Notes under the pieces: model-generated
What the model saw: the letters and a program-made list of their open reading frames with translations, nothing else
What the model was told of the DNA's origin: nothing
Database searches by the model: none
Program-made: the position numbers and the translations under genes
Source of the DNA: a virus
Reading direction: 5' to 3' (one strand)
Length of the DNA: 64,000 bases
Virus record (IMG/VR): IMGVR_UViG_3300043540_000321
Span: 1-64,000 of that record
Shown here: piece after piece, positions 4,121 through 57,500 of the stretch
Layout: every line of letters starts with the position of its first letter
Position numbering within the stretch: the first letter of the stretch is position 1

Positions 4121-4204
4121 TCTGCAAAATTCTTTCTTAAGAATAAAAATTACATTGATTAAGTCCATGAGCGAAGGAAAATGTAGAAGTTTTTTCTTTA
4201 TTCA

Positions 4205-4942: not shown

Positions 4943-4956
4943 TCAAGGAGGAAACT

Positions 4957-5673
4957 ATGGAGCTGGAATCAGAGTTCCAAAAACCCGGTGGGTACAGAGC
5001 AAAACTAAAGTTCACGGGTAACGTGGACGAGTTTCACGCGGTCTATACCTCAAACAACTACTATATCCACACAACTTCCTTGCCGCCGGTTCAGTTCTTC
5101 CAAACCATGCACCAGCCGATTCAGATTGCTCCGGCAGCTCCGCATACGGTGAACAACAATAACTTGTTGTTGCCGGGACAGGAGTATGCTTACACACTGC
5201 CATCGGCACCACTCCCTGCGTTACCTCCAGCTCCTACCCAGCCTTCCAACTACTGGTCTCAGACAGTAGACACATCGGCGCACACTCTAAACGGTCTACA
5301 GAGAACGTTGCAGGGTATCAACAGTCCCTCTAATCAAGGAGGTGGGTTTTCGAAATTCATTCGGGGACTGTTCAGCAAGAAGGAGAAAGACCCGCTCGCT
5401 CAATACCAGGCGATGTTGGCACAAGTCAATGGCCAGAAGGCAGGAGGGGGTTTTAATCATAAGATGCTGATCTACGCTGTTGACGCACTACTCGTGATAA
5501 TGGCTCTCTATGTTGTGTTCAGTCCTTCGGGACAGAACCAGATTAAAAATTATCTGAGGCCGCTTACTAACCTTGTTAACCCTTCCTCTGTGGAGGGGAG
5601 CAAGTCGCAGGTAAGACCTCAGGTAAAACCTCAGGTAAAACCTGGTCCTATGGAAGATCCCAACAAAGTGTAA
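4957..5673 (+). CDS. Pro-rich single-TM protein
   Basis: 238 aa with the ATG 8 nt after AAGGAGG, the best ribosome-binding site of this operon. The N-terminal ~60 residues look folded (GYRAKLKFTGNVDEFHAVY), followed by a Pro/Ala-rich linker. A single hydrophobic helix (LIYAVDALLVIMALYVVF) lies at about 170-188, and a short tail with three copies of a QVKP-like unit ends the protein. The DNA of that tail is a 12-bp tandem repeat at about 5606-5645. It resembles its neighbours at 4205 and 5678 in composition and layout, which suggests three membrane subunits made together with the FtsK-like ATPase. Family not recognised. Confidence 0.65.
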   Translation: MELESEFQKPGGYRAKLKFTGNVDEFHAVYTSNNYYIHTTSLPPVQFFQTMHQPIQIAPAAPHTVNNNNLLLPGQEYAYTLPSAPLPALPPAPTQPSNYWSQTVDTSAHTLNGLQRTLQGINSPSNQGGGFSKFIRGLFSKKEKDPLAQYQAMLAQVNGQKAGGGFNHKMLIYAVDALLVIMALYVVFSPSGQNQIKNYLRPLTNLVNPSSVEGSKSQVRPQVKPQVKPGPMEDPNKV

Positions 5674-6339: not shown

Positions 6340-8511
6340 ATGCAACTAACTGGCCTCCCGAATAAGGAGGTAATCAACCACCAAATTGAGCGAATCAAGA
6401 AGCTCAGCATTAATAACCGGGAGGTGTTGCGCGACCTCGGCACCATAATAATCCCGAATTTTGAGAAGTGGTTACCATTCATCGATGAGATGAAATTAGG
6501 CATATCTGCTCGAGAGGTCAAACAACTTCTGGCTACGCAGTTTTGTCTTCGTGTCTTGATAGACACTCAAGGAAAACCACCCGACGATCCCGCCGTCAAA
6601 GAAGGTCTAAAGCTATGGATAGACTGGGTGAACCACTGGCAAGTTGGGGATTCCAAAGAGCAAATCCTAAGAGACGCGCACACTATTATGCAGGCCGCAG
6701 CACCTACTTCTAACTCGACTTCCTTCGCTAACTCACCTCGAACTGCCCCCACAGCCAGTTCGGGACCGAGCGAGCCGTCAGCATCATCTCAGTTGACTCG
6801 TGCGAATCCGACGGCGGTAGTCCGACGGCCAGTTGAGACTCAAGTTATCAAGACTATCGGTCGGAACACTCTTCTTAAAGGAGAGATGGTCGAGCAGGCC
6901 TACAGTTCGATTGGAAAGATCGAGTTCCTTCCAGAAGACTCATCTGACCGGGGGCTTAGGCATGACCGCCTACGTTTTAAGAAGCCGTTAACGGTCACTT
7001 TTGCCGCCTGTAAAAAGGTGCTGCAGGAGGTGATCAGTCACGCCGGAGTGGACCCTGAAACGGAGATACTCTTCAGGGCGTTGGCGAACAACCAGTTCGA
7101 CCTGCACATTCCCAGGCCGCCGGAGCAGTGGAAGATTCTCAGCTACACGGATTTCTTACACGCAGGATGGGATAAGTCGAAGTCGACTTTGGGCTCCTAT
7201 CTCTCTCGGAGATTTTTTGTTCCGCCGCATGAGCCTCCTCGAGTCCCGGTCGGGGTGAACCTGGATATGGAAGAGGTGGCTATCCGGTTTAGTACGGGTG
7301 TGTTTATCACTGGGAAACCAAACCAGGGTAAATCCGAGCTGGTGAAATCCATCCTGATGACCCTGGCGATCGGATTCCAACCGAACTATCTATGGTGGGT
7401 AGGCGCGGACTGGAAAGACGGGGCCTTACTCGATAAGTTCTCTTGCCTTCCTAGCTGTGTGCAACCGATCGCCAAGTCGGAAAAGGAAGCCCAGGAGCTC
7501 ATGAAGTGGTTGAAGGCTCAGTTCAAAAGGAGGGAGCGACTTCTCGACCCCTATAAGAAATATGGTGTTGAGAACATTTGTCACTACAACAAACTGCCGG
7601 ATGTTGAACCCATGCCCTGGCTGCTCCTCTTCTGGGAAGAGCTGGCTCGAGGTCGTGAAGTCTTAGGAGAGACTCAAGACGAGTTTCTCCGTTCGGTCTG
7701 TCAATACTGGCGGTATATCGGGATTATTCCCGTCGCCACCACCCAGTATCCCTCTCAGAATATATCTGGCTCTGGACCCGGTATGCGTTCTGCCTATGGG
7801 ACAAAGGTTGCCTTCAAAAATGATGAGGGAGCTAAACTCCTATTTGGTGAAAGTAGCATTCACGCTAAGTACGCTCAGGCTCTCAACGGACCTGGGGACT
7901 GTATAGTCGTAGGTGACGATAGCTTCGATCGTTGCCAGACATTCTTTGTCGAGCCAGAAATCTTGCTGCAGATTATCGATGCGATATCTCAGCGTGATGC
8001 TGACTATTCCCTACCAGAGCTCGCTCTGATTGGACCAGAAGAAGAGGAACGAGCGGTGGCTTCGGACCCTTCTTCGCCAGCCTCCTCGGAATCGGAACCG
8101 GATCGGGAGGAAGTGCTGGCTATGAGTACGAGTTACCAGGAAGAGACTATTACGGAAACGGACGAGAGCGATCTCTCGGACCTGCCCAATAATATGCTCG
8201 ACATGGTACGAAGGTTTCAGGATTACAACAGATTGATGCAACTGGATGCCGACCTGAAGAAGGAAGGTAAGCCAGGCGTCACTCAAAACCATAAATTGGC
8301 TATGCTGGTCGGAGACTATCTCTATCCAAAAGGAGACCCCCGGCGTGGAGTGTACCAGGGATGGTTATCTGTTGATGAATTTAAGAACCTTGACAAATCC
8401 GATCCGAGATTAAAGGTGTCTAAGGGAGGTCGTTACTTAGATAACGCGAAGCTCCGCTTGGAGGAGATTATCCAGAAAGTCTCCGGGGTAAACCAGCCTG
8501 TGGCTTGCTAA
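6340..8511 (+). CDS. FtsK/HerA-superfamily DNA-translocase-like ATPase
   Basis: 723 aa. An N-terminal helical domain is followed by a Ser/Pro linker (~125-165), a mixed alpha/beta region, and a P-loop ATPase core. Walker A is GKPNQGKSE at ~325, Walker B is PWLLLFWEEL at ~430, and a later segment (ALNGPGDCIVVGDDSFDRCQ) matches the end of the FtsK motor domain where the ring contacts DNA. Residues ~620-723 form a C-terminal accessory domain. There is no TM segment, unlike FtsK, but three small membrane proteins are encoded immediately upstream and could anchor it. Known motors of this superfamily pump DNA or protein through a membrane or pack DNA. Whether this one serves conjugation-like transfer, segregation or another secretion role is not settled. 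Confidence 0.8.
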   Translation: MQLTGLPNKEVINHQIERIKKLSINNREVLRDLGTIIIPNFEKWLPFIDEMKLGISAREVKQLLATQFCLRVLIDTQGKPPDDPAVKEGLKLWIDWVNHWQVGDSKEQILRDAHTIMQAAAPTSNSTSFANSPRTAPTASSGPSEPSASSQLTRANPTAVVRRPVETQVIKTIGRNTLLKGEMVEQAYSSIGKIEFLPEDSSDRGLRHDRLRFKKPLTVTFAACKKVLQEVISHAGVDPETEILFRALANNQFDLHIPRPPEQWKILSYTDFLHAGWDKSKSTLGSYLSRRFFVPPHEPPRVPVGVNLDMEEVAIRFSTGVFITGKPNQGKSELVKSILMTLAIGFQPNYLWWVGADWKDGALLDKFSCLPSCVQPIAKSEKEAQELMKWLKAQFKRRERLLDPYKKYGVENICHYNKLPDVEPMPWLLLFWEELARGREVLGETQDEFLRSVCQYWRYIGIIPVATTQYPSQNISGSGPGMRSAYGTKVAFKNDEGAKLLFGESSIHAKYAQALNGPGDCIVVGDDSFDRCQTFFVEPEILLQIIDAISQRDADYSLPELALIGPEEEERAVASDPSSPASSESEPDREEVLAMSTSYQEETITETDESDLSDLPNNMLDMVRRFQDYNRLMQLDADLKKEGKPGVTQNHKLAMLVGDYLYPKGDPRRGVYQGWLSVDEFKNLDKSDPRLKVSKGGRYLDNAKLRLEEIIQKVSGVNQPVAC

Positions 8512-12539: not shown

Positions 12540-12770
12540 TGAGCTTGTAGACTCCCCGACGCTTAGGCGCGGGTACAAACCAAGCTATTCTGACCAGCCT
12601 AAGGCTTTCGAGGTCTACGTTTTTTGAGTCACGACACCCTGGAATGCGACGCTAGTTCCTTGCTCTGTCATCTGCAATTAAACAGTCTTAAGGTCACTGA
12701 GACAGTGTTGCAGGTCTAAAAAGCTCTTAAAACATTGGCGAAGCGAACATTACTTTTAGGAACCAACGCA
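12540..12770 (+). ncRNA. Putative omega RNA of the iscB element
   Basis: The ~230 bp without a gene upstream of iscB contain several hairpin-capable stretches, including CCCCGACGCTTAGGCGCGGG at about 12553 and a run around ACTGAGACAGTGTTGCAGG near 12696. Known: IscB nucleases use a structured guide RNA (omega RNA) of about 200-300 nt encoded just upstream of their gene, with the guide at its 5' end. Position and length fit. If so, the guide would be read from the sequence near 12520-12545 at the element's left end. I have not folded it. Confidence 0.45.
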
Positions 12771-12773
12771 ACC

Positions 12774-14055
12774 ATGTTGAAACCCAATTTTGTTTTCGTG
12801 CTAGACACCAATCACAAACCGCTCACACCTTGCAAGCCTTCAATGGCGCGTAAGTTGCTGAAGGCTGGAAAAGCGGCGGTGTTTAGACGATTCCTGTTCA
12901 CCATCATCCTTAAAAAGGAGGTAGACGCTACGCCAGAACCGATTGAACTCAAATTAGATCCCGGTTCCAAAGTTACGGGAATCGCTCTCAAGCAAGGCAG
13001 TAAAGTTTTTTTTGGTGCAGAACTCACCCATCGCGGTCAAGCCATCAAAGCGAGTCTAGAATCACGCCGCTCATTGCGACGAGGTAGACGCGCTAGACAG
13101 ACTCGCTATCGTCAAGCCCGGTTTCTCAATCGGACTCGTCCTAAAGGTTGGTTAGCGCCTAGCCTTCAACATCGAGTCGAAACAACCCTAACTTGGGTGA
13201 ACAAATTCATCAAACTTGCACCCATCGGTTCCATCGTTCAAGAATTGGTACGCTTTGATTTACAGCAGGTTGAGAACCCTTGAAATCTCAGGGATTGAAT
13301 ATCAGCAAGGTGAACTCGCGGGGTATGAGGTCAGAGAATATCTGCTCAACAAGTGGGATAGAAAATGCGCTTACTGCGGTGCTGAAAACATTCCGCTTCA
13401 AGTGGAGCATATTCACCCAAAAGTCAAAGGTGGCTCTAACCGCATCTCTAATCTGTGTCTGGCTTGTGATGACTGCAATCAGAAAAAAGGCACTCAGGAC
13501 ATCAAAGCTTTTCTAGCCAAAAAGCCTGATCTTTTGAAACAGATTTTGAGTCAAGCAAAACGCCCTCTCAAAGATGCAGCGGCGGTCAATTCAACCCGAT
13601 GGGCATTGTTCAATCGACTGAAAGAAACAGGTCTACCTGTCAGTACGGGGTCAGGAGGTCTAACCAAGTTCAATCGGACTCGTCTAGAACTGCCTAAAAC
13701 TCACTGGCTAGATGCGGCTTGTGTCGGTCAAGTTAACAAGTTGGAAGTGTTGACTAATCAACCGTTACTGATTAAAGCAACGGGTCACGGGTCGCGTCAA
13801 AGGTGCCGCACTGACAAGTTTGACTTTCCCAGTCGATACGTGCCCCGATTCAAGTTTGTTCAAGGCTTTCAGACAGGCGACATTGTGAAAGCTATTGTCA
13901 CATCTGGCAAGAAAGTTGGTGAATATGTCGGACGGGTTGCGGTTCGTTCTAGCGGCTCGTTCAACATTTCCGACAAGTCGGGATTGGTTCAAGGCATCAG
14001 CTACAAATACTGCAAATCTATTCACAAAAAGGGCGGTTACTCGTATGGCTTTTGA
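12774..14055 (+). pseudogene. iscB: iscB, RNA-guided HNH/RuvC nuclease, broken by one frameshift
   Basis: The reading frame from the ATG at 12774 gives the N-terminal PLMP-like domain, RuvC-I (KLDPGSKVTGIAL), the Arg-rich bridge helix (SRRSLRRGRRARQ) and RuvC-II (VQELVRFD). It stops at TGA 13281-13283. One base over, the frame continues as EISGIEYQQ, the HNH domain (CAYC..VEHIHP..CNQKKG), RuvC-III (HWLDAACVG) and a complete C-terminus to 14055. Removing one T at 13280/13281 restores a full IscB of about 427 aa with all catalytic residues. IscB is the ancestor-type relative of Cas9. Either this copy is dead or the frame is a sequencing or assembly error; programmed frameshifting is less likely. 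The 3' end overlaps the next gene by 11 bp. No tnpA is adjacent. Confidence 0.88.
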
Positions 14056-20895: not shown

Positions 20896-22022
20896 GAAAA
20901 AAGTCTGGTAATGTTCTCGTCGCTACGAGATGCCCTATCTTCAGCTAACTCAACTTTCGTAACGATCAGGTATCCAAAAAAAGGTACGAAGTTCCTATGA
21001 AACTTTCTTCCAAGTCCAGCGGTAAAGCCTTTAAGCCTCGAGCCAAGTCCAGTCTTGATACTCGACAGGCATTCGACCAAGCAATAGCCTTTCAACAAGC
21101 AGGTCAGTTGACGGAAGCCGAGCAGCTCTGTAGACAGATCTTGCGACAAGAGCCTCAAAATATCCACGCATTAAACTTGTTGGGCATTGTTGCTTGTCAG
21201 TTTGGTCGATTCATGGAGGGGATTGACTTTTATCGGCGAGCCTTGGAAGTGAAGCCAGGATTTATCGGTGCAAGAGGTAATCTTGCCCTGGCTTTGGAGA
21301 AATGGGGCGGGCAGATGATGGACGAGGCTGAAGTCATCTTTAATCAGATCATTACTTACGAGCCTCAGGACATTAAATCTTACGAGAACTTGAGTACTCT
21401 CCTGCTGGAGCGAGGTCATCTAAACAAAGCTCTACACTATCTCTACGCTGGATTGCAAGTGCAACCGAACAACCCCACTCTCCTTAACAACATTGGTACG
21501 GTGCTGCATGAGCAAGGTAAGTACGAACAGGCGGCGACCTACCATCGTAGAGCGTTAGAGGTTCAACCTGGTATGGCCAGTGCCATTGTTGGGTTGGCTC
21601 TAAGCTCACAAGTCCAGGGAGAGTTTGAGGAAGCAATCGAACTTTTCAACCAGGCGGTACGTTCCGAACCCCACAATGTCGTAGCTCACTACAACAGGGC
21701 TTTACTGCATCTGATGTTGGGGAACTATAAAGAGGGGTTCGAAGATTACGAGTGGAGGTTCCTAACAAAGGACTTTACACCCTGTCCCTTCGAACAGCCA
21801 ATGTGGGACGGCAGCGACCTGAACGGACGAACTCTGGTTCTGCACGGAGAGCAGGGAATGGGAGACACTATCCAGTTCATTCGCTACGCTGCGATCGCTA
21901 CTCAGAAAGGCGGGCGCGTCATTCTTACCTGCCACGAGCCTTTAATAGGTAGACGGGAAATCCCCGGTCTTCTATAAGCCGGGGATGAGAGGCGCGGCAA
22001 TGAAGCGGAGCGGAGTTGCCAA

Positions 22023-22463: not shown

Positions 22464-23756
22464 ATGATTGTAACCCGCAGAATCACTTTCAGGCTGTATC
22501 CGAAAGTTGCTCAAGAGCGCAAGCTGTATGAGTGGCGACGGTTGCATTGCTATCTCTACAACTCTGCCTTGGCAGACAGGAAGGATAGCTATCAAAAGCT
22601 TGGCAAGTCTGTAGGTTACTTCGAACAACAGAACCGACTGCCTGAGTTCAAAACAGTGTGGACTGAGTTCAAGGCACTTGGTTCGCAGGCGTTGCAAGCC
22701 ACACTCAAACGGGTTGATTTTGCGTTTCAGCGCTTCTTCAAAGGTTTGGGTGGCTATCCTCGGGTTCAGTCGATTCGCAACTATTCAGGCTGGACTTACC
22801 CCGCGACAAGTGGCTGGAAGGCTCACACAACGGGCGACAACGGGTATCTGGAACTGTCTAATCTCGGGCAAATCCAGATGCGCGGCAAAGCGCGAACATG
22901 GGGCACTCCGACTACTTGCACCATCGTTTATCGACACGGCAAGTGGTATGCCTCCATCACGGTCAAGTGTGAGCCGAAGCGAAAGACTGAAGACGGTGCT
23001 GTAGGGCTTGATTTTGGCACGCTGACGGCAATTGCCGTGAGTGATGGTCAGAAGATTGAGAACCCCCGCTATCTGGCTGCTGCTCAGGCAAAGGTTAGGC
23101 AGGCATCAAAGCAAAAACGGCGGAAGCGAGCCCCCAATCGCAAACTCAAAATTAAGGGTTCGCGTCGCTGGAAGAAAGCTCAACAGCGAGTGTCAAAGCT
23201 TGTCCGCAAGGCAGCGAGACAGCGCACAGATTGGGCGCATAAACGCACGGCAGAGATCGTGAGCTACAACAGCCTCGTCGTGACGGAAAAACTCAATATC
23301 AAAGGCATGACCAGCAAAGCCAAAAAAGGGAAGCGCAAACGCCAAAAGACTGGTTTGAACCGCTCCATCCTGGATGTGGGCTGGGGCATGATGCGCGGGA
23401 TGTTGCAATACAAAGAAGCGGAGGCGAACGGGGTTTACCTAGAAGCACCGACGCAGCAACTCAAGCCCTCGCAGCGCTGCCCTGAATGCTGGCAAGTCAA
23501 ACCAAAGACTCTGGGGGAGCGTATTCACGACTGTCCCTGTGGTTGCACAGAGGATCGAGATGTTGCGTCCGCTAGAGTTTGCCTAATTTGGGCAAAGGGG
23601 TTAGGAACTAGCCTCTTGGACGCTGATCAGTCCGGCTCTACCAAAAGCCCCAAACACGCTGGAGGCTTTCGGCAACTGGCTGAAACGAAGCGTCAAAAAC
23701 TCCGCAATCTAGAGGACTCCGGGTTAGAAACCCCGTCCTCCTATGAGGCGGGGTAG
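22464..23756 (+). CDS. tnpB: TnpB RNA-guided nuclease of IS200/IS605
   Basis: 430 aa. The N-terminal helical part starts RRITFRLYPK. The RuvC acidic residues are present: Asp in VGLDFGTLTAIAV, Glu in VVTEKLNIKGM and Asp in EDRDVASARV. The zinc finger is CPEC...CPCGC between the second and third acidic motifs. An Arg/Lys-rich bridge (KQKRRKRAPNRK) is present. Known: TnpB cuts DNA with a guide RNA made from the right end of the element and helps the IS persist at its site. The guide would come from about 23640-23762 plus the flank. The gene looks intact and its stop lies within the right-end hairpin. Confidence 0.93.
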   Translation: MIVTRRITFRLYPKVAQERKLYEWRRLHCYLYNSALADRKDSYQKLGKSVGYFEQQNRLPEFKTVWTEFKALGSQALQATLKRVDFAFQRFFKGLGGYPRVQSIRNYSGWTYPATSGWKAHTTGDNGYLELSNLGQIQMRGKARTWGTPTTCTIVYRHGKWYASITVKCEPKRKTEDGAVGLDFGTLTAIAVSDGQKIENPRYLAAAQAKVRQASKQKRRKRAPNRKLKIKGSRRWKKAQQRVSKLVRKAARQRTDWAHKRTAEIVSYNSLVVTEKLNIKGMTSKAKKGKRKRQKTGLNRSILDVGWGMMRGMLQYKEAEANGVYLEAPTQQLKPSQRCPECWQVKPKTLGERIHDCPCGCTEDRDVASARVCLIWAKGLGTSLLDADQSGSTKSPKHAGGFRQLAETKRQKLRNLEDSGLETPSSYEAG

Positions 23757-24412
23757 TTCATTAAAACTGCTCTCGACCATCTCAGGTATTGACCAAGTGA
23801 TTCCCTTGAACTACCCGTTGCCCCACTTCGATACCTACGCCCCGCTGATGAGTCTGCCGCGTATTCTGGGGACCACGATAGATACTGTACCCAACCATGT
23901 ACCTTACCTATCGGTTCCAGCGACCGCCTCACTTAAACAGTTAGAAGCTCCAGCACATACTCGACTGAAAGTTGGTATTGTCTGGGCGGGAGGAGTCCTG
24001 TACAAGCACAACGAGAGTCGTTCTTGCTCGCTGAGGCACTTTGAGCCTTTGTTCGAAGTGCCTGGAGTTGCGTTCTACAGCCTGCAAAAGGGAGTTCAGC
24101 GGGATGAGTTAAACTTGCTCGGATGGGAGGGCTGGGTACCTGATCTGGGACAGGACTTTAAGTCCCTGTCCGATACAACCGCCGCGATCGCACAGCTCAA
24201 CCTGCTGATCACCGTGGACACGGTGACTGCCCACCTGGCAGGTGCGATGGGCAAACCTGTATGGACACTGCTCTCTAACCCGGCTGATTGGCGCTGGATA
24301 GTAGGGAGGGAGGATAGCCCCTGGTACCCCACTATGCGTTTATTCAGGCAGCAAGAACCCGGTGATTGGGCAGGCGTGATTCAGCGAGTCAAAGAAGAGC
24401 TGAGGGACTTGG

Positions 24413-25105
24413 TCAAGCTGCCTTTAGAGCCTCCGCCCTACGAAGAATCTCTCGAAGTAAAGGATGTCGCTGGATATCCTCATCCGTGAGATGGATGACG
24501 TCTACGCCCTGAATTCCTTCGAGAAGTCGTGCGGCGTAGAGGATTCCATTACGGCCCTCAACATCCACTTGTTGAGGGTCGCCATTAATAACAACCTTCG
24601 ATCCTGACCCCATTCGAGTCAGGATTGTGATGATCATTTCCTCTGTCATGTTTTGAGATTCTTCGACTAGAATTCCAGTATTGAGGAAGGTTCGCCCTCG
24701 AAGATAGGAGACAGGAAGAGTTTCGATACATTTATTCTCGATGTAATAGCGAAGCTCTGTTCCGGTACACATTTGTGCCAGGTTGTCGACGATCGGACCC
24801 ATAAAGGGGGCCATCTTATCTCGAAATTCCCCAGGCAGAGCGCCGAGATGCTCATCGTTTGTATCAACAGCCAAGCGAACACAGACAATCTTTTCGAGCT
24901 TTCGAGTCTTGAGATGTTCCAACAGCGTTTGTATACTCAAACAGGTTTTTCCTGTTCCGGCTGGACCCGCGACAACTGTTATGGGGTTGTTCCAAATGCT
25001 TGCAACTAAGCGCTTCTGGCCAGGGGTTTTAGGACTGAATCGAGTACTGGTATCTGACAGACTACTCGGTTTGGTCATAGTCAACTTCCTGCTAGTTTTG
25101 TCCAC
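24413..25105 (-). CDS. phoH: PhoH-like ATPase
   Basis: 230 aa. The C-terminal PhoH domain has Walker A GPAGTGKT at ~40-47, the ILVEESQNM Walker B and the NGDPQQVDV sensor strand. Known: PhoH-like genes are common in cyanophages and other marine and freshwater phages. The cellular form has been linked to RNA processing and phosphate stress, but the phage role is unproven. Minus strand; it converges with the interrupted glycosyltransferase gene and overlaps its last 77 bp. It starts 15 bp from the divergent gene at 25120. Confidence 0.9.
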   Translation of the reverse strand: MDKTSRKLTMTKPSSLSDTSTRFSPKTPGQKRLVASIWNNPITVVAGPAGTGKTCLSIQTLLEHLKTRKLEKIVCVRLAVDTNDEHLGALPGEFRDKMAPFMGPIVDNLAQMCTGTELRYYIENKCIETLPVSYLRGRTFLNTGILVEESQNMTEEMIITILTRMGSGSKVVINGDPQQVDVEGRNGILYAARLLEGIQGVDVIHLTDEDIQRHPLLREILRRAEALKAA

Positions 25106-26913: not shown

Positions 26914-27293
26914 ACGAGCAAGAATGGATCGAGAGTTTTAAGCAATTTGGGCTAACCGGGCAGGATACCTCTGCTGAAGACACTCTTCTAAAATTATTTT
27001 CCGATATTGTCGCCATTACCTATAGGGGGTCAGAAGGGTCTAAAGAGCAGGCAATCAACACTGCGCTGAACATTGCGGAGGTTTTGCACGCTGAAGTAGA
27101 CCTGACGATGACTCGCTCATTTTTTGATGGGGTTGCCGAATGGGCGCAACTGCTTCAAGATCGGTTGCCCCAATTGAGCGGAAAACAGTGTACCGAGATT
27201 GTTATGCTACGACTTAGCTTACTACAAGAGCAGGCTCGTTCCCTCCTCTACGAATACTCAACTGACTTAAGAGGCAAAGACATCGATGTCTGA
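26910..27293 (+). CDS. Hypothetical protein upstream of recA
   Basis: 127 aa, with an ATGA overlap with the resolvase-like gene and an 8-bp overlap with recA. It is all-helical and contains no clear motif. Translational coupling on both sides suggests an accessory recombination or replication role. Family not recognised. Confidence 0.55.
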   Translation: MNEQEWIESFKQFGLTGQDTSAEDTLLKLFSDIVAITYRGSEGSKEQAINTALNIAEVLHAEVDLTMTRSFFDGVAEWAQLLQDRLPQLSGKQCTEIVMLRLSLLQEQARSLLYEYSTDLRGKDIDV

Positions 27294-28305
27294 AACAATG
27301 GAAGAGCTTCAGTCGAGGCTCAAGGACGAATTCGATATTGAATTCGGCGATTATTCTTATTTAGAAACGTTGCCTACTCGTTTACCGAACTTGGACCGGA
27401 TCATGGGGGGAGGAATCCCTCTCGGACGACAGTTAGAAATATTCGGACCGTCAGGTTCAGGTAAAACCACCCTCGCTTTGTATGTCATGAGCCTGGCGCA
27501 GGAGCGAGGGTGGCCGACGGCTTATTTAGATTATGAACATCGACTCGACCCCAATCGCGATGCAATCAAACGGGCGAAATGTCAGCCTAACTTTTTCTAT
27601 TTCGATAAAGTTAAAGACCGAGACTTCATCACCGCAGAGGATGGAGTCAACTTCTTAAGGGCATTTCTTCCTACTAAGGACGGAACTCCTCGAGTTGCCA
27701 TAATAGACTCTCTCGCCGCATTTAAGCCAAGGTGCTCCTTCGAACGAGACATCGGAGATTCAGAGCAGCCGGGTCTCCAGGCTCGGTTCATGAGTCAGTA
27801 CATGCCGATGATCGGAGGTATCGTCAAATACAACCGCAGTATTTTGATCTGGATCAACCAACTTCGAAACAAGATAGGTGGGTATGGTAACCCAGAGGTG
27901 ACTCCAGGCGGTATGGCCACTCCTTACTATCAGACTCTCCGACTCCGCATCTCCAGAACGGAGATTATTAAAAATGAGGAAGACGGAGGCATCCGTTCCC
28001 GAATAGAGCTCATTAAAAGTTCGACTTCTAGAAGTCACCAGAGCTGTGAGATTAGTATCCGAGACAGTGGCATTGACCTACGCTCTGCTTTGTTCGAGGA
28101 GCTGAAAGTTCGAGAAGTCATTAGGTTGGGTGGAAGTTACTATAACTTCGCTCCTCAATATAGTGAGCTGGCGCAATCTTTGGGACTGGAAGTTGACCCC
28201 AAGAAAGGGATGGCTCGAATCGGGCAGGGAGAGAAGTCCGTCATGAAACTTTTATCCGACTCGGATGTTTTTGATAAGCTGTATGAAACAGTTTTGAACA
28301 CTTAA
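27286..28305 (+). CDS. recA: RecA/UvsX-family recombinase
   Basis: 339 aa. Walker A GPSGSGKT is at 54-61, Walker B VAIIDSLAAF is at ~140-150, and the DNA-loop region follows with ILIWINQLRNKIGGYGNPEVTPGG. It has the short N-terminal helix and shorter C-terminus of phage-type RecA rather than the full bacterial layout. It forms filaments on single-stranded DNA and drives strand exchange and recombination-dependent replication. It lies four genes after the start of the replication operon and is followed after 4 bp by a small gene and then by polymerase. Confidence 0.9.
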   Translation: MSETMEELQSRLKDEFDIEFGDYSYLETLPTRLPNLDRIMGGGIPLGRQLEIFGPSGSGKTTLALYVMSLAQERGWPTAYLDYEHRLDPNRDAIKRAKCQPNFFYFDKVKDRDFITAEDGVNFLRAFLPTKDGTPRVAIIDSLAAFKPRCSFERDIGDSEQPGLQARFMSQYMPMIGGIVKYNRSILIWINQLRNKIGGYGNPEVTPGGMATPYYQTLRLRISRTEIIKNEEDGGIRSRIELIKSSTSRSHQSCEISIRDSGIDLRSALFEELKVREVIRLGGSYYNFAPQYSELAQSLGLEVDPKKGMARIGQGEKSVMKLLSDSDVFDKLYETVLNT

Positions 28306-28309
28306 AAGT

Positions 28310-28627
28310 ATGGAGCTCAAACAAAGAATCCCTCCTGAAATCGCTCAACTGCCTCTGGAAAAGTTCTACGAACATGTCCTGGCAGCAGAGCGGAGAGCGA
28401 AGGAGGCCGTCGATATGTCTACGGAAATGGTTGAGTCAATCCTCCGCCAGAATCAAGAGGCCACCATGCGCTGGCAGGATGCTATGAAGCTCCGGTTGAT
28501 GGTCGAGGACTATATTACGTTTTTGCAATCACCGGACACCTCCGCTGAGTCTCAGACCACCTATCACTTCTCCTATACCGCCGACTCTACCCAGCAAATT
28601 CCTTACGGAAGTACAAGCGACGAATGA
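28310..28627 (+). CDS. Small hypothetical protein
   Basis: 105 aa, helical in its first 75 residues (YEHVLAAERRAKEAVDM onward), then Ser/Thr-rich. It lies between recA and the polymerase N-terminal gene with a 4-bp overlap to the latter, so it is coupled to DNA synthesis genes. No family recognised. Confidence 0.55.
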   Translation: MELKQRIPPEIAQLPLEKFYEHVLAAERRAKEAVDMSTEMVESILRQNQEATMRWQDAMKLRLMVEDYITFLQSPDTSAESQTTYHFSYTADSTQQIPYGSTSDE

Positions 28628-29994
28628 TTGACTTTGTTTATTTGAAAGAGCCTGAGGAGTATCTTCGGGCTCTTTCTTACTTAGAACCCGAACCTGACCC
28701 AGCATGTGACGTAGAAACTCACGTCCTCCAGAAGTGGAGAGGTCGTGGTGGGTCTGCTCTTGACCCCCACACCGGTCGCATCAGTCTGCTGACTCTAAAG
28801 GGAAGGGGTACAGTGCCCCACATATTTGACATCCTCGAGCTGGAGAGACGGGATTACGATCGCCGTCCCATGTACGAGTACCTGCGGTCGCGGAAGAAAC
28901 TCCTTTTATTTCAGAGTCAATTTGACCTGAAGTTTCTCTTTCGTCACTACGGTGTGTTCCTCCGAAACGCCTGGGACGTTCGTCTCATGGCAAAATTAAT
29001 AGGGAACGCCACCGGTTCCAAATACGCCCGACAGATGGGACATACCCTTGCCGACGTGTCGCGGGATTGGTTGGATGTCCACGTCTTCGGTAAGGGCAGC
29101 GAGCAGGTATCGGACTGGTACCCTCGCCCTCTGACGCAAGAGAAGTTGCAGTACGCCGCCTCCGACGTAATGTACTTACACGACCTGCACGATATGATGC
29201 TCCCGGTCATCATCAATCCCCTCCCAGTCTCTCCTCTGAATCCCAACGGAGCAGACGATAAAAACTATGGGCTGGGGATGGCGAGGACGCTCGACCTGGA
29301 AATGAAAATGTGCTCCGTTGCCGCCGAGATGGAGTACAACGGGCTGCCGGTCTCGGCTGCTCTATTGGAAGACATCCAACGAGCCATAAAAGATGAAGAG
29401 ACCCTCTCTGGACGGCTGTACGAGGTAGCGTCGGAACTCTGTGAGATCTTAGGACTGCCAACCGAACCCTGTCTCTGGACGGAGGATCGGATTCCATCGG
29501 ACGCGGCGTTTAAGACGTTGAACAACCCTGTGAAGCTGAAGATTTTAATAAATCAGCACACCAGGCTGAACCTCGATAGCTCGCAGACTCAATTGCTGAC
29601 TCGACTGTTAGACCTGTTAGCTCAGATAGAAGAGAAGGGTGAACCGGACTTCGTCGATGATGATGAGCAGGCAGTCTACGGAACGATCGCTAACATCGAA
29701 GAGTCCGTGGCACTGGCGATGAGCAAAACCTGCTCGTTAATCGTGGAGTATAAAAAACTCCAGAAGTTATACTCGATGGACTTGCGATCGTATGTAAACC
29801 CTTGCACAGGTTGTATTCATAGCCATCTGGACATGTTGGGGGCGGCTACTGGACGCTCCAGTGGGTCAAACCCAAATCCTCAAAACATTTCCGCCCGGAC
29901 GTATATCGAGATCGAGCGTCCGTTTAATGATCTATTTCCCAGCTCAGCGAATTATGACCAACTCTTACCCGACTGGAACCCCTTCGCAGCCTAG
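28624..29994 (+). CDS. polA: DNA polymerase I, N-terminal half (3'-5' exonuclease and start of polymerase domain)
   Basis: 456 aa. The DnaQ-type proofreading exonuclease has all motifs: CDVETH (Exo I, D-x-E at 29-31), FQSQFDLKFL (Exo II) and YAASDVMYLHDL (Exo III). It is followed by thumb helices and the first conserved polymerase stretch AATGRSSGSNPNPQNISART. It then diverges and stops at 29994, before motif A. The missing part is found in the gene at 31644, 1.65 kb downstream. There is no 5'-3' exonuclease domain. The two products must assemble to make an active polymerase, since motif A and the O helix are in the second gene. It has an ATGA overlap with its upstream gene. Confidence 0.9.
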   Translation: MIDFVYLKEPEEYLRALSYLEPEPDPACDVETHVLQKWRGRGGSALDPHTGRISLLTLKGRGTVPHIFDILELERRDYDRRPMYEYLRSRKKLLLFQSQFDLKFLFRHYGVFLRNAWDVRLMAKLIGNATGSKYARQMGHTLADVSRDWLDVHVFGKGSEQVSDWYPRPLTQEKLQYAASDVMYLHDLHDMMLPVIINPLPVSPLNPNGADDKNYGLGMARTLDLEMKMCSVAAEMEYNGLPVSAALLEDIQRAIKDEETLSGRLYEVASELCEILGLPTEPCLWTEDRIPSDAAFKTLNNPVKLKILINQHTRLNLDSSQTQLLTRLLDLLAQIEEKGEPDFVDDDEQAVYGTIANIEESVALAMSKTCSLIVEYKKLQKLYSMDLRSYVNPCTGCIHSHLDMLGAATGRSSGSNPNPQNISARTYIEIERPFNDLFPSSANYDQLLPDWNPFAA

Positions 29995-30133
29995 CGACAT
30001 CGTCTGCGACCTGGGAGACCTAAAGTTACATCTCATGGACAAGATTCAACTTCTGACCCTAAAACGAGCATTAGCTCACCTGATTGAGAAAATCGACGCG
30101 GAGTTAGATAAACATGACACACCACATTCTTAA
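29954..30133 (+). CDS. Small hypothetical protein in the polymerase gap
   Basis: 59 aa from the ATG at 29954, overlapping the end of the polymerase N-terminal gene by 41 bp. It is mostly one amphipathic helix (LLTLKRALAHLIEKIDAEL). It also overlaps the next gene by 20 bp. It could be a peptide involved in joining the polymerase halves, but this is speculation; an alternative is a chance frame. A moderate coding signal comes only from its fit between neighbours. Confidence 0.4.
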   Translation: MTNSYPTGTPSQPSDIVCDLGDLKLHLMDKIQLLTLKRALAHLIEKIDAELDKHDTPHS

Positions 30134-30422
30134 GACGCATCCCGAACCCTTTGAAGCCTTATGGAGCCGGGTGAAACCCTTTGAGTTCAGAAGAAACGAC
30201 AGAGATTTTCAGGTTGGCGACTCCTTTGTCTTGAAGGAGTTTGTGCCGGACCTGGTTCCAGATGAAATCGGCGGGTGCTTTACCGGACGGTCTATCTTTG
30301 GAACCATCCCTTATGTTCTGAAGGAAGGGTATGGAATCCCAGAGGGATACTGCATATTCACCGTCAAAGAAGTCGGTAGAACGCTTAGAGAACCACTTGG
30401 AGTCGATGAAACCTTTAATTAA
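30114..30422 (+). CDS. DUF3850/ASCH-like protein
   Basis: 102 aa. The pattern LKTHPEPFEALWSRVKPFEFRRNDR followed by FQVGDSFVLKEF matches DUF3850, a PUA/ASCH-type RNA- or nucleotide-binding fold common on phages and conjugative elements. It overlaps the Dam-like gene by 17 bp. Its target is unknown. It belongs to the cassette that splits the polymerase gene. Confidence 0.8.
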   Translation: MTHHILKTHPEPFEALWSRVKPFEFRRNDRDFQVGDSFVLKEFVPDLVPDEIGGCFTGRSIFGTIPYVLKEGYGIPEGYCIFTVKEVGRTLREPLGVDETFN

Positions 30423-31194
30423 ATCAGCCGGCGGCAAAAGCTGGTTGGCTCCCAAAATTAAGCAGATTTATCTTGAACGGTTCGATGGATATCGAGTCGT
30501 CGAACCGTTCGCGGGTGGTGCGGCGGTGACGTTTGAGATACTGCCTAAACACGCTTTATTAAATGACGTCAACCAGGCAATTATTAATCTCTATACCTGG
30601 GTCTCTACAGGAATTCCCTTTAACCCAGAGTACTTTGTCTGTGAGAAAGACCATTTCTATAGGATGCGGCAGGAATTTAACAAGGGATTTATCAAGGGAG
30701 ACCCCTGGTCGCACAGGTCAGCTCAACTCTTCTACTTTTTGAATAAAACCTGCTTCAACGGCCTGACCCGGTTCAATGCTAAGGGAGAGTTTAACGTTCC
30801 TTTTGGCAAGTACAAGTCTGTGAACTATCGTCTGGACGAGCTGCCGTACTATGCCGGAGTGATGGGACGGTGGAGCTTCACCCAAATGCACTTTGCAGAT
30901 CTCCTGCTGGCAAACGGGCGTGAAGACGACTTCACTTACTGCGACCCACCTTACGACGATGGGTTTGTGCAGTACTCGAAAGACGGGTTCTCCTGGGAAG
31001 AGCAGGTTGAACTGGTCGAAAGGCTGAAGGTTCTACCCGGTCCAGTTATCGCATCAAACAAAGCCACCGATCGGATTCTCGACCTCTACGCCAATGCAGG
31101 GTTCGAGATTGAGTTGTTGGATGCTCCAAGAGCGATCAGTTGCAAGGGCGATCGCACGCCGGTGAGGGAAATGTTTGCCACGAGGAACCTGTGA
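30406..31194 (+). CDS. dam: DNA adenine methyltransferase (Dam/D12 class)
   Basis: 262 aa from the ATG at 30406. Motif X/I is EPFAGGAAV near residue 33, and the catalytic motif IV YCDPPYDDG lies near residue 180; between them is the FLNKTCFNGLTRFN stretch typical of D12-class N6-adenine enzymes that include Dam (GATC). It is intact. Cyanobacteria methylate GATC inside HIP1 sites, and this enzyme may do the same to protect the phage DNA or time replication; GATC specificity is not proven. It is the largest gene of the cassette between the two polymerase genes. Confidence 0.88.
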   Translation: MKPLIKSAGGKSWLAPKIKQIYLERFDGYRVVEPFAGGAAVTFEILPKHALLNDVNQAIINLYTWVSTGIPFNPEYFVCEKDHFYRMRQEFNKGFIKGDPWSHRSAQLFYFLNKTCFNGLTRFNAKGEFNVPFGKYKSVNYRLDELPYYAGVMGRWSFTQMHFADLLLANGREDDFTYCDPPYDDGFVQYSKDGFSWEEQVELVERLKVLPGPVIASNKATDRILDLYANAGFEIELLDAPRAISCKGDRTPVREMFATRNL

Positions 31195-31433
31195 GTAAAA
31201 CCTTAGAAGACTTGTTAGTCAAAAAAAGTATGCCGGAGATTCTGGTTCTCTTTAGAGAGGCAGAGACTTATCGGGAGTCCGGCGGGTTGCCGGAGGATTC
31301 TAAGATCCGAGAGCTGGCGCACCAGATTTTCTATCCAGTTAACGCTCTTCAACTAACGGCTGTCTGCAATGAGATCTATCGACAACTGGCGATCGAGGCA
31401 GTCACCTACTTCAAGCGACAGTCCCAGGTATGA
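31191..31433 (+). CDS. Small hypothetical protein
   Basis: 80 aa with a GTG start at 31191 that overlaps the Dam stop codon, and an ATGA overlap with the next gene. All-helical, no motif. It is part of the cassette splitting the polymerase gene. Family not recognised; the tight coupling is the main evidence. Confidence 0.5.
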   Translation: MSKTLEDLLVKKSMPEILVLFREAETYRESGGLPEDSKIRELAHQIFYPVNALQLTAVCNEIYRQLAIEAVTYFKRQSQV

Positions 31434-31675
31434 GTAGAGGGTTCTCTAAACCGACCAAGTTTGAAATTATCCTCCTCGTAGCATTTGAGGAGGGAATCCT
31501 TCTTCTGCCGTACCACGCGGTCAGGAATTTTATGACTTCCAGCCAGACTCGCACGACTCTGGAGTCCTTAGAGAAAAGGGGCTGGGTTGTTAACGCATCT
31601 CCGTATCGCTTGACAGATAGAGGGAAGGAGGCTCGGAGTCGGTATGTCAACTCCAACAATAGACGCCGTCGTTAA
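31430..31675 (+). CDS. Winged-helix-like small protein
   Basis: 81 aa. Segments FEIILLVAFEEG, TLESLEKRGWV and YRLTDRGKEA have the pattern of a MarR/PadR-type winged helix (third helix plus wing ending in LTDRG). The basic C-terminus overlaps the start of the polymerase C-terminal gene by 32 bp. It may regulate the cassette or bind DNA beside the polymerase. The fold is inferred from pattern. Confidence 0.52.
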   Translation: MSRGFSKPTKFEIILLVAFEEGILLLPYHAVRNFMTSSQTRTTLESLEKRGWVVNASPYRLTDRGKEARSRYVNSNNRRRR

Positions 31676-32651
31676 GATCGGTCTTCGGTCTCACGACGGC
31701 AAACCAAAGCCAGGTATTACTATGCGTCAGGCGTTTGTGGCTCCTGACGACTGGGCAGTATTAAGTTGCGACTACGGTAACCAAGAACTATACATTGCTG
31801 CCTTCGAGTCGAAAGATACGGCGATGTTGAAGGCGTTCAGTGACTCGAAGACTCTGCCTCTTCTAGATGCCTCTGGACAACCTATGTTCAAAGACGGCCA
31901 GCAGATCTTCTACCCAAACCCGCACGCGGATTTGCACTGTCTGACTGCCGTGTTTTGCTGTTTCCCGCGACTGTTTGAGGGAAGACCCGAGTATGAGTGG
32001 GTTCGCATCTCCAAAGATGAGACCCTGATCGTTCAGAAAGGGTGTGCCCGGGATTACGGGAAAAAGACAAACTTCGGAATCGCGTACATGCAGACCGCCC
32101 AAGCAATGGCGCAACTGAACTATGTGCGTGAGGAAGAGTGTGCTCAGTGGATTAAGGCTCACCAATCGCTCTATCCTGAATTTCATGCCTGGGCTCAGGA
32201 AAAGGCTGGGTTCTCGAATGCGAGAGGCTGGGTCGAGAACTCCCTGGGTCGAATCCGCTGGACGGCGGAAGATAACGCGAAGAAGGCTGGAGCATCCCCG
32301 GCCCGATCGGGTGTAAACCACTGCATCCAATCGATGGCAGCGGAGCAAGCTAAGCTCGCGCTGTGGAAAATCTCTGAGCGTCTTGAAAAAGAACCTCTGG
32401 CATTCCGACCCAAATTATCCATGCTCGTTCATGATGAGATCATCGTGATCGTTCCAGGAAAACTCATCTTGGATGAGACGAAGTGCATGTACGACGGTGT
32501 GACCTTTGTACCTGTCTATCGTCCAGACGAAGATGTTAAATACTGGGCTAAAGAACTCCAGACGTTAATGGAGGAGGCTCAAGCTGAGACCTTCAACTGG
32601 GAATTGCCGGGTAAAGCGGACCCTTCTACCTCCAGATTCTGGGCGCATTAG
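31644..32651 (+). CDS. polA: DNA polymerase I, C-terminal half (palm and fingers)
   Basis: 335 aa. After ~28 unfamiliar residues the family-A sequence resumes at MRQAFVAPDDWAVLSCDYG (motif A, with Asp), continues to the O helix RDYGKKTNFGIAYM (motif B, Arg/Lys/Phe present) and ends with LVHDEIIV (motif C, His-Asp-Glu). So all catalytic polymerase residues lie here and the proofreading exonuclease lies in the gene at 28624. The motif B loop has a Met where Gly is usual. The start at 31644 overlaps the winged-helix gene, and the true start could be a little further in. The stop is followed by a hairpin. Confidence 0.9.
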   Translation: MSTPTIDAVVKIGLRSHDGKPKPGITMRQAFVAPDDWAVLSCDYGNQELYIAAFESKDTAMLKAFSDSKTLPLLDASGQPMFKDGQQIFYPNPHADLHCLTAVFCCFPRLFEGRPEYEWVRISKDETLIVQKGCARDYGKKTNFGIAYMQTAQAMAQLNYVREEECAQWIKAHQSLYPEFHAWAQEKAGFSNARGWVENSLGRIRWTAEDNAKKAGASPARSGVNHCIQSMAAEQAKLALWKISERLEKEPLAFRPKLSMLVHDEIIVIVPGKLILDETKCMYDGVTFVPVYRPDEDVKYWAKELQTLMEEAQAETFNWELPGKADPSTSRFWAH

Positions 32652-51511: not shown

Positions 51512-54500
51512 TCAACCTACAGCAGTGATATAGTCACTTTGTTTCGGGAGCCCAGTCGCCGACTCCCACGATTTCAAATACGAGGTTTCGGTAGCCACTC
51601 GAATGACTGTCTTGTTGTCTCGCTGTTCGACTGTGGCGCGGACCTTCGCCTCTTTAATAATTCCATCCTGGGTCTTGTATTGATACTGAGTGTTGGGTCG
51701 AATAGCCACCGCTTGCCGCTTTAACTCATTCAGCCGTTGCTGAGCCGCCTTCACTTTATCTCGAGTGAACTGGACCACTTTTGCGGCGGTTGCGACCGGC
51801 GGGACTGTTGGGTTGGCGGCCAGGGCCAGCAGATGTCGGTCTACTGTTTGTGCCGCTGCCTTAAGTCGAGTCGTCTTCTCCGGCCGCTTCGGTTGATTCT
51901 CATTCGCTTTCTGGGCCGCCTGCCCTAAAGAGGGCTGTGTCGGTTTAGCATAACGAGAGAAGGCTCTCCAGTAGTACTGCAGAAGTTCGGATGCCCGACG
52001 AGTCGGCTGCCCGTAAGGAGCGTCGGGGAAGCTCGCCCAGACCGAGCGAAGCTTTCTCATCGCCACATTAATACGCCCAGCGTCGATGTCCGCCAAAGCT
52101 CCTTGCTGTTGAATCAGCCAGAGCGCGGCCTTATCCTGGCTCGCTGGAGAGAAGTCTTTCAGCCCCAAAGCTTTACGAGCATCATCCCAGGTGAACGACA
52201 TGAACTGATATCGTCCGGCCGCATCTGACCGGATACCACCGCCGCTCATTACAGTACGGGGATGGTCGGCGAAGTTCGAGAACCGACGCCCCGTGAACAT
52301 CACGTTGTAGTCCGCGCCTTCCGAGTAGCCAATCATATCGAGGAAGGCCCGGCGAGCCGCGCTGATGTTTGTCGCTCCCACGTTCCCCTTTCGACTTCCG
52401 AAGTCTCCCGAGACGAGAGCCTTCATGTATCGTTGCAGCAACGCTTCTGAAGTCTCCAGGTGAACGTGGACAGCCGTAGAGGTCTCGCCCGTACTCCCTT
52501 GGATACCCAATCGTTGCCCAAACCTGACCGTCTGTCCGGCCTTCACTTCAATGGTTTTGTTGTGCAGAACTCGAGTGACCGCGCCGGAGGCATCCTGGAT
52601 TTTAATCATGCCGAGTTCCCCTACGAACCCAGCGAAAATGACCTTACCTTCTACCGGAGAGGGTACTGGGACGTTAGTGCTACTCCCCCTGTTCAATTGG
52701 ATGTCGACGACTCGCTGCCCGTTATCGAGATAAGATTTCAGCTTCCCGTGGTCCATCCGATAGCGGACGTATCCCCCCGTCCCCTCCCAGTGAGGACGTA
52801 ATTCTTCGGCACTGCGGGCGATACCTTCTCCATACCGGCGACCTCCGAGAGACCAAACGGTGTAAGGAGTCAAACGCCCCACTCCGTCGACCGAGTCGGT
52901 GAAGGCGGAAGACACTTGGTCTTTAAGGTCAACGAGAGCATTCGAGAGACCTTCTCTCACCTTCGCGGTTGTGTTCATCAATCCTTTCGCTACATTATTG
53001 AGCTTGGTGAGAGCGTCTCGGGCGAACTTCTCGGCGTTCCACCACAGGTTCTTAAACCCATCTCCGACCGATCGCAGCAGCCCCATCAATCCAGTGGATG
53101 CCGGAGGTTCTTTCTTCCGGATCCAGCTATCCCGAGAGGGTTGTGCCCGAATGATTTTCTGTATCTCAGGGTTGGTCAAACCCATGCTTGCCTCATGGAC
53201 GGGCATATAGGATAGACCCTCGCGCTTGGTGTGCCGGAGGTCTTTGGTTCCAAGGAAACTACTGAAGGAACCAGCCAGGCTACCAATTAATAAACCAGCA
53301 CCAATTCCAACGCCAGCCAGCAGCAGGATCGGAGCGGAGACAATACCGGCGGCAACCAACCCGGCAGCAGCAAGACCTCCCAGGACGGCACCTCCGATTC
53401 CACCTAATAGCTGGTTACGGACAACGGTTTTGGCCCCGACTCGGCGGGCGAACGCCTCTGAGCCGAGCTTTTCTCCTATCTTCGAGAAGGTGTAGTCACC
53501 GATGAGGCTACCAGCAATGGCTGCGATCGGACCCGCAAGAGAACCTCCGATGATGCCCCCTCCGAGTGACCCAATACCACCGGTGGTTCTTCGCAGAGCG
53601 ACCTTGTACTCAACCTCACTCCTCGCTGTCTGTGCTTTTTGAACCCCGCTACCAATCCGCCAGATATCGATGATCGGTCCGGCAAATCGCAGAACGTGTC
53701 CGGCCCCTCGAGCTAAAAACCCAGCCGGTTTGGCGAACTTCGCGGCGAGTTCTCCAACCTCAGGTGCAGACTTTCCAAAAACTCTCAGGAAGCGGGCTTG
53801 TGCGGCCTCGCTTGCTCTTGTCAAAGCTCCGGCGTACGTTCGAGAAGCAGAAGTCGCTATTCGGTCCATCAAGGAAGCTGAACCCGATAGCACTCGAACG
53901 TTTGCCGCCGCAAGGTAGCGCTCAGTCAAAGTAGAGACTCGAAATCCAATAGCCTGCCCAGCCTCCTTCGCCAGAGCCGCCTGCTTCAAACCCGGTTCGA
54001 GAATATCCTCAAGGATTGGAACAGCTCCGTAGTCCTTCGCCTCATATCTCATGCGGGCGACTCGTACGGCCTCTTCGGCTCCGCCGACCTGACCGAGGAT
54101 AGATCCGGAGATGTCCCCCAGAACGCCTCCAGAGAAGACCCCCAAAATAGACCCGACCAGGGAACCTTTAGCTCCACCCATCTGGGCGTACGCTTCTTCT
54201 ACATCTGTCAGACTCGAAGTTTTGTTCAGTCGAAGTGCTTTAAGAGCTCCTCCTCCTAAAGTAGTCAGGTCAACGACGGGGGCGATCGCACTGAGAATCC
54301 CCTCTCGGTAGCCGTGTGTCAGGACATACTCGGACATCTTCGGAGCCAGCCGACTCATACGGAGCACAACCTGATCAAGACCTTTCTCCACAGCCTGTCC
54401 AATGAAATGGTTCGCTCGGGTTAGAACTCGTTTCAGCCACCCGAATCCTTTTATTAAATGACTGGGTAGGAGACGAAACTTTTGAGCAATCCCTTCCATG

Positions 54501-57500
54501 TGGTCCAGCGCCCAAGTTGAGACTCGACCGGGGATTGTCTTTGCCGTCTCATAGGCTCCTCGGATCTGATCGAGTGCTTCCTGGCGAAACTTAATGTTCC
54601 AACTGAACCCTTCGAATAGACTTCGCCCAAAGTCCCGAGCCATGCTAAAAGTCTGCCGAATCTGGTCGATAGCCTCCTGTCTGAACTTAATGTTCCAACT
54701 AAATCCATCAAAGAGCCGTCGAGTTAATCCAAGTAGGCCTGTTGGACGGTTCAAAAATTGGAAGGCGCGACGAATCTGGTCGACGGCTTCCGACCGGAAC
54801 TTAATGTTCCAGCTAAACCCGTCAAATAGATGGCGACTTACGTTGAGCATACTTCCAGCCCAATCGCTCGCCCCACTCAACAGCCCTCCTATGAATCGCT
54901 GCGACACGTTAAAAGCTCTTCGGATCTGACTAACAGCTCCTGAGCGAAACTTGATAGACCAGTCCCACCCTTCAAATAAACCTTTGACAAATTGACCCGA
55001 TGCTCGGAAACCTCGACCAATCTGGTCAATCGCATCCTGTCGGAAACGGACTTTCCAGTCCCATCCCTCGAACAGACTGCCCACAAAACTTCGAGAGGTC
55101 TGGAAGGCTCGCCCAATCTGGTTCAGCGCCTCCTGACGAAACTGAACGTTCCAACTGAACCCTTCAAATAATTTTTTAATAAAACCAGTCCCGCCCTGAA
55201 ACAGGTGGAGGTTACTGACCCAACTCCAACTCTCGCTGAGGTACTGAGCCCCTCTCTGCAACATCAACCTAGATGTCTGATACGCCTGTCTCATCTGACG
55301 TATCGCCTCAGGTCGAAGACGAATGTTCCAGTCCCATCCCTGAAATAGACCATGCGCGAAGCGACGAGTCGCATCAAAGGCCCGATGAACTTGTGCAACA
55401 GCATCCGGTCGAAGGCGGATGTTCCAGTCCCATCCTTTTAATAAAAATTGAGTCCCTGAAGCAATAGCCGAGAGTCCAGAGGAGATAACACCCGTCAGGA
55501 CTGGAAGGGCAGAGGCTGCGATCGCCGTCAGTTGACTAACCACTCGTGTTATCTTCGGGCCCGCCTCTGCCAGGTAGCGGAGGGTCTTACTGACTAATGG
55601 GCGGAGAGCCTGCCTAACCCTCCCTGTCAGGAATTGACCGACTGTAGCCTCCTTCTCAAACGATCGGTTCAAGCGAATGTACACAGAGGAAGACTGCATC
55701 GGGTTGTAGACATAATTTCCGTTGTCCAGATCTTTCAGGTCTTGCGCGGAGATCCAGGAGCTCAACCCAAAGAACCCAAACCTCGAGAGTACGCCGACAG
55801 TCAGCCCCGCTGCTAGTCCAGTCCACCAGCGCCCAGAGAAGAACGCGGCAAAATTACCTGCGATCGAGCCAAACATTACACCCATCTGCTCGTCTCTTGC
55901 TTCAGCTAACTCCCGCTGAGCTTGCAGCCGGTTAAACGATCCTCGAATTTTGGCCTGCTGGATAGTCTGAACAGTAGTCTCGAATTTATGAACCGAGTGG
56001 ATGCCCAGCATGAAGTCCAGAGCGACGAAAGCATTCTCTGCGATCGAACCCAGTGACCGGAATCTCTGCTGTTCAGTCAGCAGTCCTCTAAGAGTCTCAC
56101 CCGACCGAGTTTGGATGTCTTCTATCATTCCTCCAATCAGAGGGCGTCCTCTATATCGAACAGGCGGACGAAGACCCTCTTGTGGAGGAAGTGTCTCCAT
56201 CAAAATGCTGTACCGATGAGCAATATCATCTATCCTCGTCTCTCTATCCAACGTGTTGGTCAGACCTTCAAACTGGTCTCGATGAGTCGCTGAGAATGCG
56301 CCCAGAGCGCGGACGTTAGCCGAGATCTCATCCCTCAGCATCTCCTGAAGAATGTCCTGCCCAAACTTAAATTCGTCGAGCGTTCGCATCGCCGAGGACT
56401 TACTGACTCGTTCAACGATGTCCTGCAGCCGGTTGGTCTCAGTTCCCGTTTCATAAGCGATGACCTGCAAGTCATCAATGTTCAGTTTAGGTAGCGTCCT
56501 TTGAAACTCGATCGCGTGGGACATCTCATGGAACGCATCGAAGATAGCTCGGGTCACAGCACTGGGGCGAACGAACTTACCCGCTCTCATCCGACCCAGA
56601 ACACTCTCGGATGCCTTAGACAGGGTTACTGAACCTTCCTGCAGGTTGTACATACCTTCTATCTGGAACGGAGACCCGTCAAAAGATACGGGCGTGCCCG
56701 ACAATGCCGTTCGATTCAATCCCAGGCCCGTTTGAAACTCTTCTTTCAGAGAGACAACGGACTCACGAGCGGCCTGCGATATCGTTGAGCTGACTCGTCC
56801 CCTAAATAGAAGGGAGAAGAGGTCAGGTAACGCTTGGAAGAAACTGAGAGTCTTTTTAACTGAGCTACGGATCATCCGCTGGTTCCGTTGCACCCAATCA
56901 TAAGAGTCCATTGTCATGCCGGTCAGAGAGAGCTGCGTCGTTGGACCGGTGAACAACCCAAATGCCGAACTCAACGCAAAGTTAGCGGCTCCACGCATAG
57001 CTGCGGCGCGAAGACCCTGAGCCCGAGCGATAGATAGTAATTTTGGGAGTTGGGTCAGCGTAGAAAGACTACCGACCAGAGCGGACTGCTTCAGATAGTT
57101 CAGGACTGGGTTCTTGTCTTTACGGCGGTAGTCTCCGAGGGCTAAGTTCTCACCCGCCCAGCCTCCTACAAAACTCCCCAAAGCAGAAGCAATTAAAGCA
57201 GGAAGTGGGCGTTCGACCAAAGACAGAGCAGCAGCTCCGGCGGTGTATCCACCCAACGACATGCCCACCTCCCGGTAGGTCTCTCGATACTCTTTGTAAC
57301 TGCTTCCTCGTCCGAGAGAAGAAAGTCGATAGTCCGTCTGTTGAGCTATCAAGAGCTCCAGACGACTTAAGAGGATCGGCCCGATCGGAACTTTGGGAAG
57401 TGAGGTCATTAGAGTCCCTATGCCTCGGTCTAACCCTCGCCGCATTCCAAATGAGAGAACCTTTTTCAGAGGTTCCATCATCTCTTGGGAAAGACCTATT

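Follow-up and report, generated by a model that had tools for sequence, protein, structure and literature searches.

Family-A DNA polymerases that are divided between two phage genes are already known. The Zobellviridae phages MEP401 and MEP402 were published as having split DNA polymerases, with the question of an intron left open by the authors (PMC10580990); in both, an open reading frame (ORF) with the exonuclease and motif 1 is followed by a small ORF and then by an ORF with motifs A, B and C. In Microcystis phage Ma-LMM01 (Fukuivirus) the two halves carry the annotations '3'-5' exonuclease' and 'DNA polymerase' and belong to a gp180-gp179-gp178 array, gp178 and gp180 both being expressed in the middle phase (PMC5780444). 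The polA of Vibrio phage ICP2 is interrupted by an HNH endonuclease gene and annotated as one joined CDS. Among other enzyme families, gp43A and gp43B, the two parts of a split polymerase in T4-like phage 25, purify together and show activity, NrdA of Aeh1 has full activity despite being split, and homing endonucleases are an established cause of split phage genes (PMC2988022), while the split PolB of MIJ3 comes with a split intein (PMC6892783).

The locus described here lies in a window of 64,000 nucleotides, the whole stretch of DNA that we analysed, taken from a 195,211-bp contig of a large virus that is kin to cyanobacterial viruses. Its arrangement is that of the split phage PolA of MEP401 and MEP402, but the 77-aa ORF between their halves is unrelated to the genes found here and their break lies about 15 residues nearer motif A. 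Ma-LMM01 is broken at the same site as the window and both of its halves are transcribed, yet its 51-aa gp179 shows no homology to gene E of the window and its polymerase groups with an undivided relative. ICP2 is likewise broken at this site (QNIS-N, then stop), and differs in the endonuclease and in the annotation. Finally, gp43A-gp43B of phages 25 and 44RR and NrdA of Aeh1 are also essential phage enzymes made as two cooperating chains; unlike the window's, they are a family B polymerase or a ribonucleotide reductase, with a mobile endonuclease or an untranslated spacer where the gene is broken. In the limited literature that we searched, neither a single fracture point that is used repeatedly and long inherited with a conserved gene in its gap, nor the enlargement of such a gap by cargo genes like Dam and DUF3850, has been described.

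Results

The preliminary description of the window had proposed one family-A polymerase in two genes, with the exonuclease and the first polymerase motif upstream and motifs A, B and C downstream, and both Pfam and a mapping onto Taq polymerase bear this out (Table 1). The N half matches PF01612 (1.2e-14) and positions 29-136 of the PF00476 profile, and the C half matches PF00476 with 7.5e-31; across the whole record this profile is covered at 28-137, 138-183 and 206-344. Since coverage stops at 137 and resumes at 138, nothing was lost at the break. On Taq, the N half reaches residue ~588 and the C half begins at ~591. The catalytic residues are all kept, as had been claimed: D29, E31, D101, Y177 and D181 of the exonuclease and T409-G410-R411 of motif 1 in the N half, and D43 and E48 (motif A), R136, K140, F144 and Y148 (motif B) and H263, D264 and E265 (motif C) in the C half. 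Exo I-III and motifs 1, A, B and C are therefore all represented in this member of family A (PF00476, PF01612). As judged from their sequences, the halves are complementary, complete and intact, and each has its own start codon, the ATG of the C half being preceded, about 14 nt upstream, by the Shine-Dalgarno-like sequence aaggagg. AlphaFold predicts a high-confidence palm and fingers fold for the C half alone (pLDDT 87.8, with low confidence at residues 1-23 and 212-215), and the model matches PolI structures with a Foldseek E of 2e-16. A complete second polymerase, which the preliminary description had named as evidence against its reading, was searched for on the 195,211-bp record, and no second family-A polymerase, PolB or PolIII alpha was found; the two-gene enzyme is the only recognisable DNA polymerase on the record.

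Table 1. Coordinates of the split polymerase genes, the genes in the gap and the group I introns in polA of relatives
Feature	Record	Position	Strand	Description
N half, family-A DNA polymerase	window	28624..29994	+	456 aa; 3'-5' exonuclease, thumb, motif 1 (TGR)
Gene A	window	29954..30133	+	59 aa; ORF, no family match; 41-bp overlap with N half
DUF3850 protein	window	30114..30422	+	102 aa; PF12961 1.5e-19
Dam-type adenine methyltransferase	window	30406..31194	+	262 aa; PF02086 1.9e-41
Gene D	window	31191..31433	+	80 aa, GTG start; ORF only
Gene E	window	31430..31675	+	81 aa, winged-helix-like; profile of relatives' E
C half, family-A DNA polymerase	window	31644..32651	+	335 aa; palm and fingers, motifs A, B, C
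Group I intron	L008	8157-8401		motif B; Rfam E 1.2e-10
Group I introns	L010	8928-9678, 10638-10831		motifs B and C; Rfam
Group I intron	L011	9868-10185		motif C; Rfam
Group I intron	L019	8720-8961		motif A; Rfam

Five small genes, among them a DUF3850 gene and a Dam-type methylase gene, had been noted in a gap of about 1.65 kb, and they are indeed there: the gap measures 1649 bp and its five genes, the starts of which were refined by reading the sequence, overlap each other and the two halves by 41, 20, 17, 4, 4 and 32 bp in order from the N half to the C half. Genes A, D and E matched no family, and no endonuclease was found in the cassette.

Relatives were sought in viral contigs. A scan with the C half alone gave no match, and a scan of genome contigs produced no relative. 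Alignment-based scans of the viral contigs revealed the same break in four large phages, L008, L010, L011 and L012, in every case directly behind QNIS of motif 1 or the corresponding residues. L008 is 54% identical to this phage in the N half, including the well-conserved tail of 34 residues that follows QNIS, and the other three are 37-40% identical; recurrence of the break at such distances (37-54%) excludes chance. Both halves are kept in every record of this clade, and the N-half and C-half trees place the five phages in the same order, so within the clade the halves have been inherited together. An undivided version, for which the preliminary description had suggested a search, exists in L013, L014 and Microcoleus phage My-WqHQDG. 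Records L028-L031 and L034-L052, in which exonuclease and polymerase are separated at another place, were set aside.

The suggested comparison of the insert among related phages was equally informative, as the gap holds one gene in L010, L011 and L012, two in L008 and five in this phage. In L012 it spans ~204 bp and is entirely coding; an apparent 851-aa open frame in this record was rejected, since several stops close it. The 51-aa ORF of L008 occupies the position corresponding to gene A, and homology between the two is unsupported by phmmer. None of the seven related records tested contains DUF3850. Dam is in no relative's gap, and outside the gap there is a partial copy in L008 and none in the other six. 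The pair in the gap is thus private to this phage and most likely represents later cargo rather than the cause of the split. Hence, of the proposal that the polymerase is split around a five-gene cassette, the five genes stand, whereas the cassette did not make the split, because relatives break alike with only gene E or with two genes. From these smaller gaps and the private DUF3850 and Dam it follows that the break is old and that the cassette most likely grew later.

Gene E adjoins the C half, and is homologous, in all five phages of the clade (5/5), where it is present as a single copy and only at the break. A profile built from the relatives' E matched the window's gene E as the sole hit among 1479 ORFs (1.4e-10). 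The gene is missing from the undivided L013, L014 and My-WqHQDG and from Ma-LMM01 (0/4), and its homology to gp179 of the latter was tested and is unsupported. Its structure model (pLDDT 76) resembles MarR/PadR winged helices with modest confidence, with a best Foldseek E of only 0.036 and many MarR/PadR matches with a probability near 1, and it has no match to any endonuclease. A comparison of L010 with L011 shows purifying selection on the N half, the C half and E (dN/dS 0.126/1.93, 0.177/1.11 and 0.18/1.99).

With E-values of up to 1 admitted, Rfam detected no intron in the window's break, and it placed none in the gaps of L010-L012, all matches with E <= 0.01 in these records lying elsewhere. 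As a positive control, the same search found group I introns (RF00028) in the polA C halves of relatives (Table 1), all of them below the Rfam gathering cut-off, but their E-values are good and they coincide with interruptions of the coding sequence; polA in the window's group is rich in such introns. ORFs inside the L010 introns resemble homing endonucleases by eye.

Splits also occur outside this clade. In Ma-LMM01 and related Microcystis phages the polymerase is broken at the window's site, a gene of 50-51 aa lying between the halves (gap about 120 bp in Ma-LMM01), and this type groups with the undivided My-WqHQDG polymerase. A single split clade among the cyanophages was rejected by the AU test with the joint alignment (p 0.018) and with the N half (p 0.0096), but the C half by itself did not reject it (p 0.385). 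Because the N half and the joint data disfavour a single origin, the Ma-LMM01 split is probably separate, making at least two splits within the cyanophage group as judged from these trees; one split followed by refusion in My-WqHQDG is the less favoured alternative. L032 and ICP2 share the window's site of interruption, which in MEP402 and ctOsX528 lies about 15 residues later, so that, at the level of sequence, phage polA has been broken more than once between motifs 1 and A. In L032, an unrelated phage, the break contains a 190-aa gene (7184-7756) that is nucleotidyltransferase-like by eye.

Discussion

We propose that the replicative polymerase of this phage is very probably a two-chain family-A enzyme, the halves of which would be separately translated and then assemble. 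Both would be co-translated from a single operon of overlapping genes and associate non-covalently, with motif 1 and part of the palm contributed by the N half. A single break, in the ancestor common to this phage, L008 and L010-L012, would account for the clade, and it would have come about along with, or on account of, the winged-helix-like gene E; in the lineage leading to this phage, DUF3850, Dam and gene D would most likely have joined later. The expectation of the preliminary description that the enzyme is active as two chains is supported by the intact residues, purifying selection and joint inheritance. It has direct precedents in the two-chain gp43A/B of phage 25 and NrdA of Aeh1, and the transcription of both halves in Ma-LMM01 agrees with it.

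Several other explanations can perceivably account for the same gene order. A split gene may be a pseudogene, and certain phages rely on the polymerase of the host, so the halves could be remnants of a broken gene, or an exonuclease and an accessory protein only, with the host polymerase doing the work. However, the catalytic residues have been kept across a clade whose members are as little as 37% and at most 54% identical, purifying selection acts on both halves in L010/L011 and no record of the clade has lost either of them, which makes a broken gene very unlikely. If, instead, the halves were exons that a group I or group II intron splices together in cis, with the cassette as the intron's ORFs, the arrangement would recall the C halves of polA in L008, L010, L011 and L019, which group I introns do interrupt, as well as ICP2, whose annotators joined the two halves around the HNH gene. 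Rfam, however, which recognised the introns in those C halves, detects none at the window's break or in the gaps of L010-L012, and the preliminary argument that there is too little non-coding sequence for an intron proves sound and is now backed by this control. The L012 gap is short and all coding and that of Ma-LMM01 is shorter still. The C half moreover starts with its own ATG and Shine-Dalgarno-like sequence, and the N-half tail is conserved as protein past the last shared residue. We therefore regard cis-splicing as highly improbable.

Joining of the halves at the protein level, by trans-splicing through a split intein, is conceivable in so far as such "fractured genes" were reportedly described by Dassa et al. 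in 2009, exist in phages (the split PolB of MIJ3 is an example), and the RecA of L008 carries an intein. Against this, Pfam finds no intein domain in either half, the 34-aa tail and the ~24-aa head before motif A are too short and show no splice motifs by eye, and the cassette is without an endonuclease; a split intein is in our view extremely improbable. The remaining alternative is an addition to the two-chain enzyme rather than a replacement for it, namely that gene E encodes a third subunit bridging or regulating both halves. Its single copy, its occurrence at every break of the clade and in none of the undivided or LMM01-type records, the purifying selection on it and its overlap with the start of the C half all fit such a role. 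However, its modelled fold looks like a DNA-binding winged helix, its position at the break could be mere history, and it is lacking from the splits of the LMM01 type, ICP2 and MEP402, so that we put a third subunit forward tentatively, as an unlikely extension. A bolder view, that the palm between motifs 1 and A is the preferred fracture point of phage PolA, reached independently several times, and that in this cyanophage-related clade an obligate winged-helix-like E holds the broken enzyme together or regulates it, giving a three-subunit replicative PolA, strikes us as distinctly doubtful.

The two-chain enzyme stands in a natural series of one polymerase, from undivided (L013, L014, My-WqHQDG) to split with one, two and five genes in the gap. 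Separate lineages break at or near one place, and polA of the same group gathers group I introns at motifs A, B and C. How cut essential enzymes survive, whether introns or homing genes do the cutting and why cargo gathers at the cut are thus questions that can be tested now. A warning for annotation also follows, since the '3'-5' exonuclease' and 'DNA polymerase' of Ma-LMM01 are halves of one enzyme.

Several further features were observed. The intein-bearing RecA gene of L008 lies at 3534-5606 (690 aa), and the window's own RecA gene (27286-28305, 339 aa) has no intein. In the window, a TnpB/IS605 OrfB-like gene lies between TPR and glycosyltransferase-9-like parts (20997-21977, 22464-23756 and 23743-24489), and these parts look like one interrupted protein. 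An RRXRR-domain ORF (12735-13283) overlaps an HNH ORF in another frame (13216-14055), the two resembling a frameshifted RRXRR-HNH gene. On the minus strand, a single ORF of 4157 aa (51512-63985) probably encodes a giant virion or tape-measure protein.
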